Source: Caldicellulosiruptor naganoensis | GTDB taxonomy: Bacteria > Bacillota > Thermoanaerobacteria > Caldicellulosiruptorales > Caldicellulosiruptoraceae | Direction: 5' to 3' | DNA length: 64,000 nt | Assembly (NCBI RefSeq): GCF_026914285.1 | Contig: NZ_CP113864.1 | Coordinates: forward strand, 2,294,501-2,358,500 | Shown here: one piece after another, positions 21,706 to 34,983 of the stretch | How the letters are laid out: every line of letters begins with the position of its first letter | Position numbering within the stretch: the stretch's first letter is position 1 | The notes under the pieces: model-generated | What the model saw: the letters and a program-made list of their open reading frames with translations, nothing else | The model's database searches: none | What the model was told of the DNA's origin: nothing | Translations under genes and position numbers: made by a program

Positions 21706-22706
<1,001 letters not shown>

Positions 22707-22844
22707 TATTTTATCTTTATTTGAAATAAGGGTAAAATCTATAAAAAGGGCAACAGCAGACACCAAAACTTTTGGGTTTTCTCAAAACTTTTGATAACAC
22801 GTGGCAATGGCAGGCACAAAACACATTATTCACTTTTTCAAAAG

Positions 22845-22924
22845 AGAGGGGCGCAAGAGGCAAGGCTGATCTATCCTCTCAATTTGGGGGTGTTTTGGAT
22901 GCCTGCTGTTGCCAAATTGTAAGC
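22845..22924 (+). repeat. 80-bp direct repeat, copy 1 (nifH side of the urea cassette)
   Basis: Identical over 80 bp to 32492-32571, in the same orientation. Each copy can fold into two adjacent hairpins: AGAGG...CCTCT, then CAATTTGG...CCAAATTG. Together the copies bracket the urt-ure genes plus the IS. Confidence 0.95.
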
Positions 22925-22957: not shown

Positions 22958-24670
22958 TTAAAATAGGTTATATCTTCGTGTCATGCTTAAGGAGACTGCA
23001 GGAGGAACATCAATCTTGTTGCCATTGACAAATACTTCAAATGTCTTATAATCAATTTCTATCTTCGGCAGTTGGTTATTATATATCATATTTTCCTTTG
23101 ATATATTTCTACAATTTTTTACTGGTAAGACTTTTTTGTTTATTCCTATTTTCTTATTTATTTCATTTTCATAGAAATAACCAGAAACAAATGTAACAGC
23201 AATGTCATAAACAGCTTTTCCAAATGCTCCAAACATCTTTTTCATAATAACAGGTTGAGGGGTTGGTATTGAAGCATTAGCATCGCCCATTTTTGATGCT
23301 ATAATAAATCCTCCTTTTATTATCATCTCTGGCTTTACTCCGAAGAATGCAGGTTTCCACAAAACTATATCTGCAATTTTTCCTGGTTCAAGAGAACCAA
23401 TATATTGTGAAATACCATGAGCAATTGCTGGATTAATCGTATACTTACTTATATATCTCTTTACACGATAATTATCATTTTGGGTGTCCTCTGGTAGACG
23501 TCCATATATCTTTTTCATTTTATCAGCTGTTTGCCATGTTCGAGTAATTACCTCTCCTATTCTTCCCATAGCTTGTGAATCAGAATTTATAATGCTTATT
23601 GCCCCTATATCATGTAAGTAGTCCTCTGCTGCCATGGTTGTTTCTCTTATTCTTGCTTTTGCAAATTCAACATCTTCTTCCAAATTTTTATCAAGATGAT
23701 GACAGAATATCAGCATATCAAGATGTTCTGGAAAAGTATTTATTGTATGCGGCATTGTAGGAGTGGTAGATGAAGGTATTATATTTTTATACTGTACAAC
23801 TTTCAGAACGTCTGGTGCATGGCCACCACCTGCACCTTCAACATGATATGCATGTAAAACTCTATTACCAATAGCTTTTATTGTATCCTCAACAAATCCC
23901 GCTTCATTCATACTATCAGTGTGCAAAGCTACTTGGACGTCAAACTCATCAGCTACTTTCAAACATGTATCTATAACTGTTGGTGTTGCACCCCAGTCTT
24001 CATGTATTTTAAAACCTACTACCCCTGCTTTCACTTGTTCAATTAACGGCTTTTCATATGAGGAGTTCCCCTTCCCTGTCAGCCCAATATTCACAGGAAA
24101 GTTATCTATTGCTTTTAACATTTTGAATATATTCCAAACTCCTGGAGTACATGTTGTAGCTTTAGTTCCTTCTGTAGGACCTATTCCACCACCTATTAAC
24201 GTCGTTATACCTTTATAAAGAGCCGTCTCTATTTGTTGAGGGCAAATGAAATGAACATGAGTATCAATTGCACCTGCTGTAGCAATCAAGCCTTCACCCG
24301 AAATAACATCAGTGGAAGGACCTATCACCATATTAGGAGTAACTCCATCCATGACATTTGGATTCCCCGCTTTTCCAATTCCGACTATCTTCCCATCTTT
24401 AATTCCTATATCTCCTTTTACAATTCCCCACCAGTCTATTATCACAACATTTGTTATTACAAGATCTAAAGCACTATTATTGCAAGCAAACTGATTTTGG
24501 CTCATTCCATCTCTAATATTTTTTCCAGCACCAAATTTACATTCTTCTCCATAGACTGTATAATCTTTTTCAATTTCAATTATTAAATCAGTATCTGCAA
24601 GTCGTATTTTATCACCAACTGTAGGTCCATATATCTTGACATAATCTTCTCTTTTGATACGATATGTCAT
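22958..24670 (-). CDS. ureC: Urease alpha (catalytic) subunit
   Basis: 570 residues from the ATG at 24670, which follows AGGAGG by ten bases. Nickel-site features are intact: HVHFICPQQ early, the carbamylated lysine in GFKIHEDWG near residue 217, [23 protein letters not shown], and the flap Cys-His in FCHHLD. It hydrolyses urea to ammonia and carbamate in the cytoplasm. It is the last gene of urtABCDE-ureABC; the first 80-bp repeat begins 34 bp further on. The chaperone genes ureD/E/F/G that load nickel are absent from the window. Confidence 0.97.
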
Positions 24671-30086: not shown

Positions 30087-30122
30087 AAGTCTAATTCCTC
30101 CTCCCAATTATTTAATATTTTT
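29764..30122. repeat. 359-bp target-site duplication, left copy
   Basis: Identical to 32105-32463, immediately flanking both ends of the IS. It covers the urtA start, ribosome site and the first 108 codons. The copies diverge right outside the duplicated segment. Confidence 0.93.
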
Positions 30123-30262: not shown

Positions 30263-30291
30263 TTGACTTTTTAAATATTTTGTGGTACAAT
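30263..30291 (+). promoter_or_regulatory. Promoter of the IS transposase
   Basis: TTGACT (30263-30268) and TACAAT (30286-30291) with a 17-bp spacer. The ATG at 30321 follows AAGGAG by seven bases. It reads into the transposase, away from the intact urtA. Confidence 0.85.
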
Positions 30292-30320
30292 ATAACAAAC
30301 TATCTTCAAGGAGTTGCCAT

Positions 30321-32024
30321 ATGTTTGTCAAAATTACTAATGCTGGCGGTTATCAGTATGTTAGGTTAGTCGAAAATTACCGTGAAAATGGTAAAGTAAA
30401 GCAAAGAGTACTATTTAACTTTGGTAGACTTGATATTCTCAAAGATGACCCCGCTTTTAAAAACATTGTAAAAAAACTATCTGATATTGTCGCTGAAACA
30501 ACTACTGAGAATGCAAAAGCTGTTACTATTGAATCTGAAGAAGATATTTCGGATGCAGTTGTAAAAAACTGGGGATACATTGTATACAGAAAGTTATGGC
30601 AGGAGCTTGAAATTGATAAGTTTTTAAAAGGGAAAGCAGCAAAAGAGAGAAAGATAAAATTTGATGTAGACAAAGTAAGTTTTTTAATGACCATACAGAG
30701 ATTGATAGAGCCAATGAGCAAACTAAGAACTTATCATCAGAGAAGCAAATATTTTGGATTTGAAGAGGATATAGATTTGAATCAATTGTACAGGTGTTTA
30801 GATTTTCTTGACAGTGTAAAAGAAGATTTAGAGACATACCTGTATCAGAGAAATAAAGACTTATTTAAGATGGTAGTTGATGTAGTGTTTTATGATGTGA
30901 CGACAATATACTTTGAGAGTTGTAGAGCGGATGAACTTAAAAATTTTGGGTTTAGCAAAGACAACAAGGTAAATGAAGTGCAAGTTGTATTAGGGCTTTT
31001 GGTGGACAAAGAAGGCAGACCGATAGGGTATGAACTTTTTCCTGGTAATACGATAGATAGCAAGACGATGGTAAAGATACTGAGGAAGCTGAAGGAAAAA
31101 TTTAGTATAGATAAGATAATAATAGTAGCAGACAAAGGGCTTAACAGCAGAATAAATTTAAAGATGATAAAAGAAGCTGGGTACGACTATATAGTAGCAA
31201 GCAGATTAAAGAATGCAAGTAAAGAAATTTTAGATGAAGTTTTTAATGAAGAAGGATATAAAAGACTTGATGGCAAAAGATGTTTGAATGCTGAAGAAAT
31301 TTATGGTGATGAATTCAAATATAAGGTATTGGAAAGAACAAATATTGTCAAGGATGAAGAGGGTAAAGAGTTCAAAATAGAAGAGAATTTGATAATAACG
31401 TATTCAAGCAAGAGAGCCAAGAAAGACAAAGAAGACAGAGAGAGATTGGTAAGAAAAGCCAAAGAGCTTTTAGAGAACAAAGGAAGCATAACAGCCTTAG
31501 AAAAGAAAGGTGCAAGGAAATATTTGAAGAAGAAATCAAAATCAGAAGAATATGTATTGGATGAGGAAGCGATAAAACGAGATGAGAAATTTGACGGTTA
31601 TTATGCAATTCAAACGAGCAAAAAGGATATGGATGTAGAAGAGGTTTTAGGAGCATATCACGATTTATGGAAGATAGAACAGTCATTCAGAGTAATGAAA
31701 AGCTGTTTAGAAGTGCGACCGATATATCACTTTACAGAAAGCAGAATAAAAGGACATTTTGTGATATGTTTTTTGGCATTTTTACTGCAAAGGACATTGG
31801 AATATATTTTGAGGAGAAAAGGTAAAGGAATAAGTAGTGAAAGGATAATGGAAGCAATATATTCAATGAACTTTTTTGAAATAGAGATAAAAGGGAAGAA
31901 ATATTTGATAAAGCAAAAAATTGAGGGAGAAGCTGGAGATATACTGAATGTAATGAAGATAAAGGGTCCAAAAAACTTCATGACATATGAGGAAGGCTTA
32001 GAATTTATTGGTATTAGCAAATGA
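30321..32024 (+). CDS. IS1634-family DDE transposase
   Basis: 567 residues from the ATG at 30321; an in-frame extension to 30282 covers the promoter and is unlikely to be translated. IS4-superfamily transposase: first Asp in DVVFYDVTTIYFES (about residue 195), second in IIIVADKGLNSR (about 270), and the Glu region HDLWKIEQSFRVMKSCLE with YHFTESRIKGHF downstream (about 465-500). Lysine-rich, AT-rich coding. No lesions are seen, so it is probably active. Confidence 0.94.
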   Translation: MFVKITNAGGYQYVRLVENYRENGKVKQRVLFNFGRLDILKDDPAFKNIVKKLSDIVAETTTENAKAVTIESEEDISDAVVKNWGYIVYRKLWQELEIDKFLKGKAAKERKIKFDVDKVSFLMTIQRLIEPMSKLRTYHQRSKYFGFEEDIDLNQLYRCLDFLDSVKEDLETYLYQRNKDLFKMVVDVVFYDVTTIYFESCRADELKNFGFSKDNKVNEVQVVLGLLVDKEGRPIGYELFPGNTIDSKTMVKILRKLKEKFSIDKIIIVADKGLNSRINLKMIKEAGYDYIVASRLKNASKEILDEVFNEEGYKRLDGKRCLNAEEIYGDEFKYKVLERTNIVKDEEGKEFKIEENLIITYSSKRAKKDKEDRERLVRKAKELLENKGSITALEKKGARKYLKKKSKSEEYVLDEEAIKRDEKFDGYYAIQTSKKDMDVEEVLGAYHDLWKIEQSFRVMKSCLEVRPIYHFTESRIKGHFVICFLAFLLQRTLEYILRRKGKGISSERIMEAIYSMNFFEIEIKGKKYLIKQKIEGEAGDILNVMKIKGPKNFMTYEEGLEFIGISK

Positions 32025-32491: not shown

Positions 32492-32571
32492 AGAGGGGCG
32501 CAAGAGGCAAGGCTGATCTATCCTCTCAATTTGGGGGTGTTTTGGATGCCTGCTGTTGCCAAATTGTAAGC
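32492..32571 (+). repeat. 80-bp direct repeat, copy 2 (glnK side of the urea cassette)
   Basis: Identical to 22845-22924. It lies between the glnK stop (32613) and urtA's leader. Just outside it, 32604-32614 (CCCCCCAAATT) can pair with the AATTTGGGGG arm inside the repeat, an alternative fold not available to copy 1. Confidence 0.95.
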
Positions 32572-32612: not shown

Positions 32613-32969
<357 letters not shown>

Positions 32970-32995: not shown

Positions 32996-34333
32996 TTACT
33001 TAACTGTTTGAGATTTTATTACAAAGTCTCCATACGCAGCCGTACCATGTTCTGTAACATCCAGACCTTCTATCTCTTCCTCTTCAGAGACTCTCAAACC
33101 AACTGTGAGTTTTATAACTGCAAATAGGATAAAAGCTGTGATTGTTGTCCAGATAAACGTTGAAACAACACCTGCAAGCTGAACTAAAAATTGCTTTATT
33201 CCACCGCCATAGAAAAGACCTCCATCTGTTGCAAAAAGACCAACCATCAGTGTACCAAAAGCTCCACATACGCCATGCACTGAGATTGCACCGACTGGGT
33301 CATCAATTTTGAGCTTTTTGTCAATGAACTCAACAGCGACAACTACAAGCACTCCTGCAAGGCCACCAATAATTGCTGCACCCCAAGCGTTAACTGATGC
33401 ACATCCTGCTGTGATTGCAACAAGACCAGCCAAAGCACCATTTAGTGTCATACTAACGTCTGGTTTTTTGTACTTTAGCCATGTGTATATCATTGCTAAG
33501 TTTGCACCCATCGCAGCTGCCAAGTTGGTATTGACAGCAATATCGCCAATTTTGTCGTTCATACCTGAAAGAGTAGAACCTGGGTTGAATCCAAACCAGC
33601 CAAACCACAAGATAAATGTGCCAAGTGCTGCTAAGGTGATGCTATGGCCAGGGATAGCATTGACCTTGCCATCTTTTGTATACTTCCCTATTCTTGGCCC
33701 AAGCATTGCAGCGCCTATCAGTGCACACCAGCCACCAACTGAGTGAACAACAGTAGAACCTGCAAAGTCGATAAATCCAAGTTTGCTAAGCCAGCCGCCG
33801 CCCCATGCCCAGTGACCAACAACAGGATATATTATGAATGAAATAACTGCGCTGTAGATACAGTAAGCAATGAACTTTGTTCGCTCAGCCATAGCACCAG
33901 ATACTATTGTTGCGGCTGTTGCTGCAAATACTGTCTGGAACATCAAGAATGATGTAAGTGGAATTGAAAGCCCTAAATGTTTGAATGAGTCGCTTAGGAA
34001 AAATCCTGACGTTCCTATAAAACCACCAGCGTCTTTGCCAAACATGAATGCAAACCCGAACAACCAGAAAATTACAGAACCGATTGCAAAGTCCATTAGG
34101 TTTTTCATAACAATGTTGCTTGCGTTCTTTGCTCTTGTAAAACCTGCTTCAACCATTGCAAACCCTGCTTGCATGAAGAAGACCAAAAACGCTGTAATAA
34201 GCACCCACACATTGTCAATTGCTGTTGCGACCTTTTCAGGTGTAATCTGGTCAGCTTTTGCTGTGCTAAATCCTAATATCAAAGCAAGGATTAAAAGTAC
34301 AATACCAAGCAGGATTTTAAAACTTCTATACAT
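32996..34333 (-). CDS. amtB: Ammonium transporter
   Basis: 445 residues, start after GAGGAGGG. A signal-peptide-like first helix (1-27) is followed by eleven Amt helices. Conserved features: FMQAGFAMVEAGFTRAKN, the ammonium-pore region GHWAWGGGWL with DFAGSTVVHSVGG, and FNPGSTLSGM. Passive ammonium or ammonia channel of the cell membrane, regulated by GlnK. It heads the nitrogen island. The leader contains an 11-mer complementary to the 80-bp repeat. Confidence 0.97.
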   Translation of the reverse strand: MYRSFKILLGIVLLILALILGFSTAKADQITPEKVATAIDNVWVLITAFLVFFMQAGFAMVEAGFTRAKNASNIVMKNLMDFAIGSVIFWLFGFAFMFGKDAGGFIGTSGFFLSDSFKHLGLSIPLTSFLMFQTVFAATAATIVSGAMAERTKFIAYCIYSAVISFIIYPVVGHWAWGGGWLSKLGFIDFAGSTVVHSVGGWCALIGAAMLGPRIGKYTKDGKVNAIPGHSITLAALGTFILWFGWFGFNPGSTLSGMNDKIGDIAVNTNLAAAMGANLAMIYTWLKYKKPDVSMTLNGALAGLVAITAGCASVNAWGAAIIGGLAGVLVVVAVEFIDKKLKIDDPVGAISVHGVCGAFGTLMVGLFATDGGLFYGGGIKQFLVQLAGVVSTFIWTTITAFILFAVIKLTVGLRVSEEEEIEGLDVTEHGTAAYGDFVIKSQTVK

Positions 34334-34983
34334 TTTTAACCCTCCTCATTTAATTGAAAGTTGATTTGAATTTGAAAAGCACTTTTTAACACCTCCCTGC
34401 GCCCCTCTTTTCAGAAATAAATTTATGTGGTATAATAAAAAAGTTGTTTTAAAGAAAAAAGTAAAGGGAAAAACATTGCAAATGGGTTGTGTGTGGAGTA
34501 TTATCCCATGTGAGGTAAAAGAAGTATTAAGTAAATTGCGGTGTTAAATAAAAAAGGCAAAGGCAACCTTTTGAAAGGCGCCTTTGCCTTTCTTTCTTTA
34601 TTCTCTTTGTTTACTCTCATTATATTCTTCATTTTGCAATTTGTCAATACCAAAATTGCATTTTATTTTATATAAATTTTTTAAGGTAATTTATAATTGT
34701 TTTAGATATTGTATATAAAAAGTAGGATGTATTTGTATGCTTTGCCTTTTGTTAATCTAATTCTATAGTACCTAATTAGATGATTATTGCATGATAACAA
34801 ATTTACAAGGCAAATTTTTATGGTTATATTATAATGATTAACAGAAAGAAAAAAAAGGAACCAGCTGTAACAGAGAGGTATGCTTCTGTGAAACTTCCAG
34901 AGGATTTTAAAATCTTATTCAAAAATTACAACTTTGAAATGTTAGATACAGAAAAACACAAAGAATTAATAGTGAACTACCAT
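34334..34983. other. Intergenic region upstream of amtB
   Basis: 650 bp, very AT-rich. It contains the amtB leader (an 11-mer TGCGCCCCTCT at 34398-34408 complementary to the 80-bp repeat), a leftward terminator at 34554-34591 and otherwise no clear gene. I could not pick a convincing promoter for amtB. A TATAAT-like box at 34429-34434 is on the plus strand with no gene behind it. Confidence 0.45.
34554..34591 (-). terminator. Intrinsic terminator upstream of amtB
   Basis: Stem AAAGGCAAAGGC / GCCTTTGCCTTT (12 bp) with a T-run on the minus strand. It isolates amtB from leftward transcription out of the mobile-element remnants. Confidence 0.85.

Follow-up and report, generated by a model that had tools for sequence, protein, structure and literature searches.

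How is nitrogenase expression controlled in this genus, for which nif regulation in anaerobes without NifA has been described as open (PMC8209448)? Bacteria of this kind have been reported to fix nitrogen up to 78 °C, and strain YA01 fixes nitrogen. Ammonium does not fully suppress nitrogenase activity in the genus (PMC8209448). The 64,000-nucleotide stretch of DNA analysed here (the window) carries nifH on the minus strand, which is the nif-sense strand, with its AUG at 22527 and a leader extending from approximately 22922 down to that codon. A sequence-only reading of the window had proposed a terminator/antiterminator switch in this leader, either a transcription attenuator or an unnamed riboswitch. 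We followed up this proposal in the genome of the window (G000) and in 11 congeners (G001–G011) that behave as Caldicellulosiruptor. The features discussed are listed in Table 1.

Table 1. Features of the nifH leader and of the amtB-glnK region, in window coordinates.
Feature	Position	Strand	Basis or remark
nifH, first gene downstream of the putative switch	21706..22527	minus	ORF and upstream AGGGAGG
Hairpin D, between switch and nifH	22633..22706	minus	19 pairs, 3 with compensatory changes
Segment C, GUUUUGGUGUCUGCUGUUGCC (22769-22749) and CUUUUU (22748-22743), 3' arm of the terminator-like A:C stem	22743..22769	minus	core invariant in 9 congeners; U5 tract kept
Segment B, GUGUUUUGUGCCUGCCAUUGCC, possible antiterminator partner of A	22803..22824	minus	invariant in 9 congeners
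Element A (78 nt) with blocks 1 and 2, upstream arm of the putative switch	22845..22922	minus	kept in 9 nif+ congeners and, in another genus, in 3 genomes; sequence model R1
Block 2 core, UGCGCCCCUCU (block 2 spans 22845-22864)	22845..22855	minus	complementary to amtB-glnK leader
Block 1, CAUCCAAAACACCCCCAAAUU	22881..22901	minus	complementary to amt1 RBS and AUG (20 nt, this genome) and to glnK1 start site (15 nt)
Segment A proper, GGCAACAGCAGGCAUCCAAAACAC, partner of B or C	22890..22913	minus	pairing, folding, shuffles
Identical second copy of element A, lying between glnK and urtA and lacking B and C	32492..32569	minus	sequence comparison
glnK (P-II protein), followed by element A	32613..32948	minus	start coordinate approximate
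amtB, ammonium transporter, leader with site L	32996..34333	minus	
Site L in the amtB-glnK leader, AGAGGGGCGCAGG, partner of block 2	34396..34408	minus	AGRGGGGYGCARG near-unique; covarying base pair

Two exclusive pairings upstream of nifH

On the minus strand, segment A is complementary to two later segments, B and C, as the sequence-only reading had stated. Its description of A:B as 5+7+8 bp was exact. For A:C it had correctly placed CUUUUU directly after C, but its count of 11+7 bp was too low: the full match comprises about 21 bp with one G-U pair and a single-base bulge, and for the leader as far as the U tract it is the fold of lowest energy. In 60 dinucleotide shuffles the minima for a best and a second-best partner were −24.0 and −16.4 kcal/mol, against −36.7 and −31.2 kcal/mol for the actual A region, and both pairings are far beyond chance. 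No double pairing of this kind and strength was found in 26 other nifH leaders, the nearest ones being much richer in G+C.

The nif genes and this leader are present in 9 of the 12 congeners. A, B and C are nearly identical in every one of these genomes, down to the two mismatches of B to A; the spacer between B and C is rebuilt, and this spacer and much else differ between the two clades of nif+ congeners. This invariance means that A:B and A:C display no compensatory changes in the nine genomes, and stems without variation are no evidence either way. The two pairings exclude each other, with the terminator-like one nearest nifH. Folds with B barred were better than folds with C barred in eight of the nine genomes at 37 °C and in all nine at 70 °C, where the advantage of A:C over A:B was 0.3–5.5 kcal/mol. 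Since the exclusive pairings are real, conserved and close in energy, a regulated transcription attenuator before nifH is plausible, and to this extent the original proposal is supported.

A terminator-like stem at C would depend on A. A local scan returned no terminator-like hairpin at C, and the last 60 nt of the leader without A were almost unfolded at 70 °C; a local terminator independent of A was rejected on the near-absence of any hairpin at that temperature. The tract after C reads CUUUUU or AUUUUU in the nine genomes. Five U residues are short, and a stem enclosing approximately 120 nt is unusual for an intrinsic terminator. That A:C is the favoured fold, and that its stem could simply end amtB-glnK transcripts, would also agree with a terminator between glnK and nifH that is fixed and unregulated, B being a chance or relic repeat. 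We consider this decidedly unlikely, because B is retained letter for letter in nine genomes, down to its two mismatches, and because blocks 1 and 2 have other partners (see below).

The other half of the proposal, an unnamed riboswitch, gained no support. Searches of Rfam at gathering and at permissive thresholds yielded nothing relevant in the leader, and the shared segment is invariant in primary sequence. The hairpin that A was said to close on itself (CAAUUUGG/CCAAAUUG) is present in this genome, where 22919–22912 pairs with 22887–22880, but it is broken in G004 and weakened in G007, which leaves it the least secure part of the switch; as an aptamer it was rejected on the break in G004. 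A ligand-sensing riboswitch, in which A to C would supply the aptamer and the expression platform, would fit the alternative pairings, the nitrogen-gene context and the structured hairpin D nearby. It is nevertheless very unlikely in our view: besides the lack of an Rfam match and of a conserved self-hairpin, A contains no conserved compact structured domain, the known occurrence is limited to one genus and three further genomes, and the antisense matches described below would be left unexplained.

Hairpin D has a conserved internal loop and three pairs compensated between the clades. On account of these compensated pairs, this part of the sequence between C and nifH is very probably transcribed as leader RNA. 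The hairpin could be a separate regulatory or stabilising element.

Element A apart from nif

Seven of the nif+ congeners have the arrangement amtB-glnK-A-B-C-D-nifH. The remaining two, G000 and G009, have two copies of A with a urt-ure module between them. In G000 the gene preceding nifH is ureC instead of glnK, a point against the switch preferred below. The copies (22845–22922 and 32492–32569, minus strand) are identical within G000 and within G009 and differ between the two genomes, as if they had been homogenised within each genome. As direct repeats they flank the whole module. A transposase gene splits urtA (window 30282–32024), the 5' part of which occurs twice, near 30107 and 32448. 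An Rfam match above cut-off to 5_ureB_sRNA (24223–24515, plus strand) lies antisense within ureC and may merely reflect conserved coding sequence.

Three genomes without nif that belong to another genus or family (G025, G032 and G034), and which we take to be Thermoanaerobacter-like, also carry element A, immediately behind a closely related glnK; neither B nor C was seen behind A in these genomes. Searching a 399-genome sample of the phylum with model R1 yielded nothing else outside the genus. Weak matches at L120, L124, L134 and L136 were judged to be chance after their context had been read. The three nif− congeners have neither A nor an amtB-type transporter, and a distant relative of amtB-glnK (in G031) is followed by an ordinary terminator after glnK and carries neither A nor site L.

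The 5' edge of element A reads TTAYAAT and resembles a −10 box. No conserved −35 was seen beside it, and no terminator of its own was seen behind A. A sigma-54 promoter reading of A, B or C was dropped, the GG/GC spacing being one position out on visual inspection.

Complementarity of element A to ammonium-transporter transcripts

Block 1 of element A (CAUCCAAAACACCCCCAAAU) is the exact complement of the RBS and AUG of a second transporter gene, amt1 (G000:723801), and glnK1, the P-II gene behind amt1, repeats UUUGGGGGUGUUUUG at its own start. With a predicted energy of −44.0 kcal/mol, amt1 was the strongest partner of block 1 among 411 start regions taken, with crude start calling, from a 400-kb genome sample and the window (mean −12.2, sd 4.6, next best −30.6 kcal/mol). 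The match stops at the AUG, which is what an antisense site would be expected to do. At 70 °C, amt1 RNA is predicted to gain approximately 10 kcal/mol when it takes the place of B and C on A. Joint changes between block 1 and amt1 are absent, as the amt1 start is invariant. The start sites of amt1 and glnK1 are the same in the nif− congeners that lack A, and are therefore not explained by A; A may instead have evolved towards them. Part of the start sequence of amt1 (GUGUUUUG, GUUUUGG) recurs in segments B and C. Block 1 might conceivably have arisen by inverted duplication of a start region like that of amt1, but the end of the match at the AUG fits an antisense site.

Nearly all congeners, including those without A, share UUUGGGGGUGUUUUG at the starts of amt1 and glnK1 (L166 at 1475 and 2713), which may be recognised by something besides A. 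A further complement of block 1 in cis, TTTGGGGG, lies just after the glnK stop codon (loci L117–L119). In G034 this complement reads TTTGGAGG together with CCTCCAAA in A; G032 has a disrupted pairing here.

Block 2 (UUGCGCCCCUCU) pairs with AGAGGGGCGCA in the leader of amtB-glnK at −35.4 kcal/mol, compared with −30.4 kcal/mol for the best sampled start region. The 13-nt motif AGRGGGGYGCARG occurs in G000 only at the two copies of A and in the amtB-glnK leader. Across 15 genomes it was confined to A copies and amtB leaders, except for one match in G001 that we take as chance, lying as it does inside a coding sequence. In G025, G032 and G034, GCGCCCC in A is changed to GCACCC(C/U) and GGGGCGC in the leader to GGGGUGC, so that a G-C pair has become A-U. 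In the alignment of block 2 with site L, 97.8% of cells were paired, against 44–69% when the two were slid; one pair was changed on both sides. The control by shuffling gave a modest result (22/500), as seven rows and a single event would lead one to expect. The same three genomes lack amt1; in two of them block 1 is decayed and block 2 is kept together with its partner, which is what two separate functions would leave.

Element A thus displays extended complementarity beyond chance to mRNA start regions and leaders, as is found in base-pairing antisense RNAs. On sequence grounds, its complementarities to both ammonium-transporter operons are well supported, and they point to RNA-RNA regulation rather than, or besides, ligand sensing. 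They hint at an antisense link between A and both operons, which is the new and testable part of the present analysis.

These matches also bear on whether the segments act as RNA at all. If A, B and C were DNA operator sites for a transcription factor, their invariant primary sequence and the inverted orientation of the A motif relative to B and C would be expected. This explanation is highly unlikely, as the matches fall on an RBS with its AUG and on an mRNA leader, the amt1 match ends at the AUG, and base pairing has been kept through a joint change.

An alternative in which the pairings do matter as RNA is that A is an antisense RNA of the amtB-glnK operon, acting in trans or derived from the 3'UTR, which B and C only sequester as a built-in sponge, with no regulated termination before nifH. 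The occurrence of A without B and C, its two target-like blocks, the copying of the amt1 start sequence in B and C, and the local scan that was empty at C all agree with this. Against it stand the conserved U5 tract after C, exactly where a terminator needs one, and the failure to see either a promoter with a conserved −35 or a terminator belonging to A. We regard this alternative as unlikely, while giving it real weight.

A possible RNA circuit and its relatives

The reading that we prefer, tentatively and at slightly less than an even chance, is a terminator/antiterminator switch before nifH with a 5' arm, A, that is antisense to mRNAs of ammonium transporters as well. What can be read from the DNA are the complementarities, with their conservation and near-uniqueness in the genomes, and the one compensated pair; termination at A:C, the direction of control, A as a separate RNA and the signal are what we infer. 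When A pairs with B, C would be left free and polymerase would run on into nifH. When A pairs with C, a terminator-like stem followed by U5 would form, one that would not arise without A. Acting in trans, or across a long operon transcript, A could pair with the amt1 and glnK1 starts through block 1 and with the amtB-glnK leader through block 2. Read-through into nif would then depend on whether A reaches C: with A held away by B or by a transporter mRNA, nif would be transcribed, and with A free, the A:C terminator would form. A released A RNA could in addition hinder translation of amt1 and glnK1. A bolder version, which we consider unlikely, is that the attenuator gating nif has other mRNAs as its signal, transporter transcripts holding A from the A:C terminator and thereby coupling ammonium uptake to nitrogenase in bacteria without NifA. 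The preferred reading offers a concrete RNA circuit between nif and both ammonium-transporter operons, with exact base pairs to mutate.

Functionally, the A switch comes closest to attenuators and to nitrogen sRNAs of the type of GlnZ and sRNA154. As in transcription attenuators, one upstream segment has two mutually exclusive downstream partners, the last of which is followed by a U tract; unlike in these, the segment common to both pairings is antisense to two other mRNAs as well, about 120 nt lie within the stem, and termination is presumed. The SAM riboswitches SreA and SreB of Listeria are terminated leaders that act in trans; the nifH leader is similar in that it may double as an antisense regulator, but no aptamer was found in it. 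GlnZ is a nitrogen sRNA released from the 3'UTR of glnA (PMC9731577). It shares with A an antisense-type sequence behind a nitrogen-assimilation gene (here glnK), whereas host, sequence and targets differ, the putative targets here being ammonium transporters and the release of A being putative. The archaeal sRNA154 of Methanosarcina mazei stabilises or blocks nifH, nrpA and glnA mRNAs (reviewed in PMC9170634); it likewise links nitrogenase genes with other nitrogen genes, but does so without an attenuator. We found no earlier report of the element in the literature searched.

ANTAR control, an antitermination mechanism at nitrogen genes, has been predicted upstream of ammonium-transporter and nitrogenase genes (PMC3369931). 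An ANTAR target in the nifH leader, as proposed for some nitrogenase genes (PMC3369931), would fit with the finding that each tested genome encodes one ANTAR-domain protein scoring at or above cut-off, and with an ANTAR-like hexaloop hairpin in the amtB leader. ANTAR targets consist of two small stems whose hexanucleotide loops have A at position 1 and G at position 4. We rejected this reading and leave it a near-negligible probability, as the nifH leaders of the nine genomes have no conserved hairpin with such an A1/G4 hexaloop. The amtB-glnK leader itself (34651–34549, minus strand) contains a TTGACA-17-TATAAT promoter followed by a GAAAGGC-AAAGGC-GCCTTTC hexaloop hairpin (A1, G4) that overlaps a terminator. 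Together with the single ANTAR protein per tested genome, these sequence features fit an ANTAR target at amtB-glnK.
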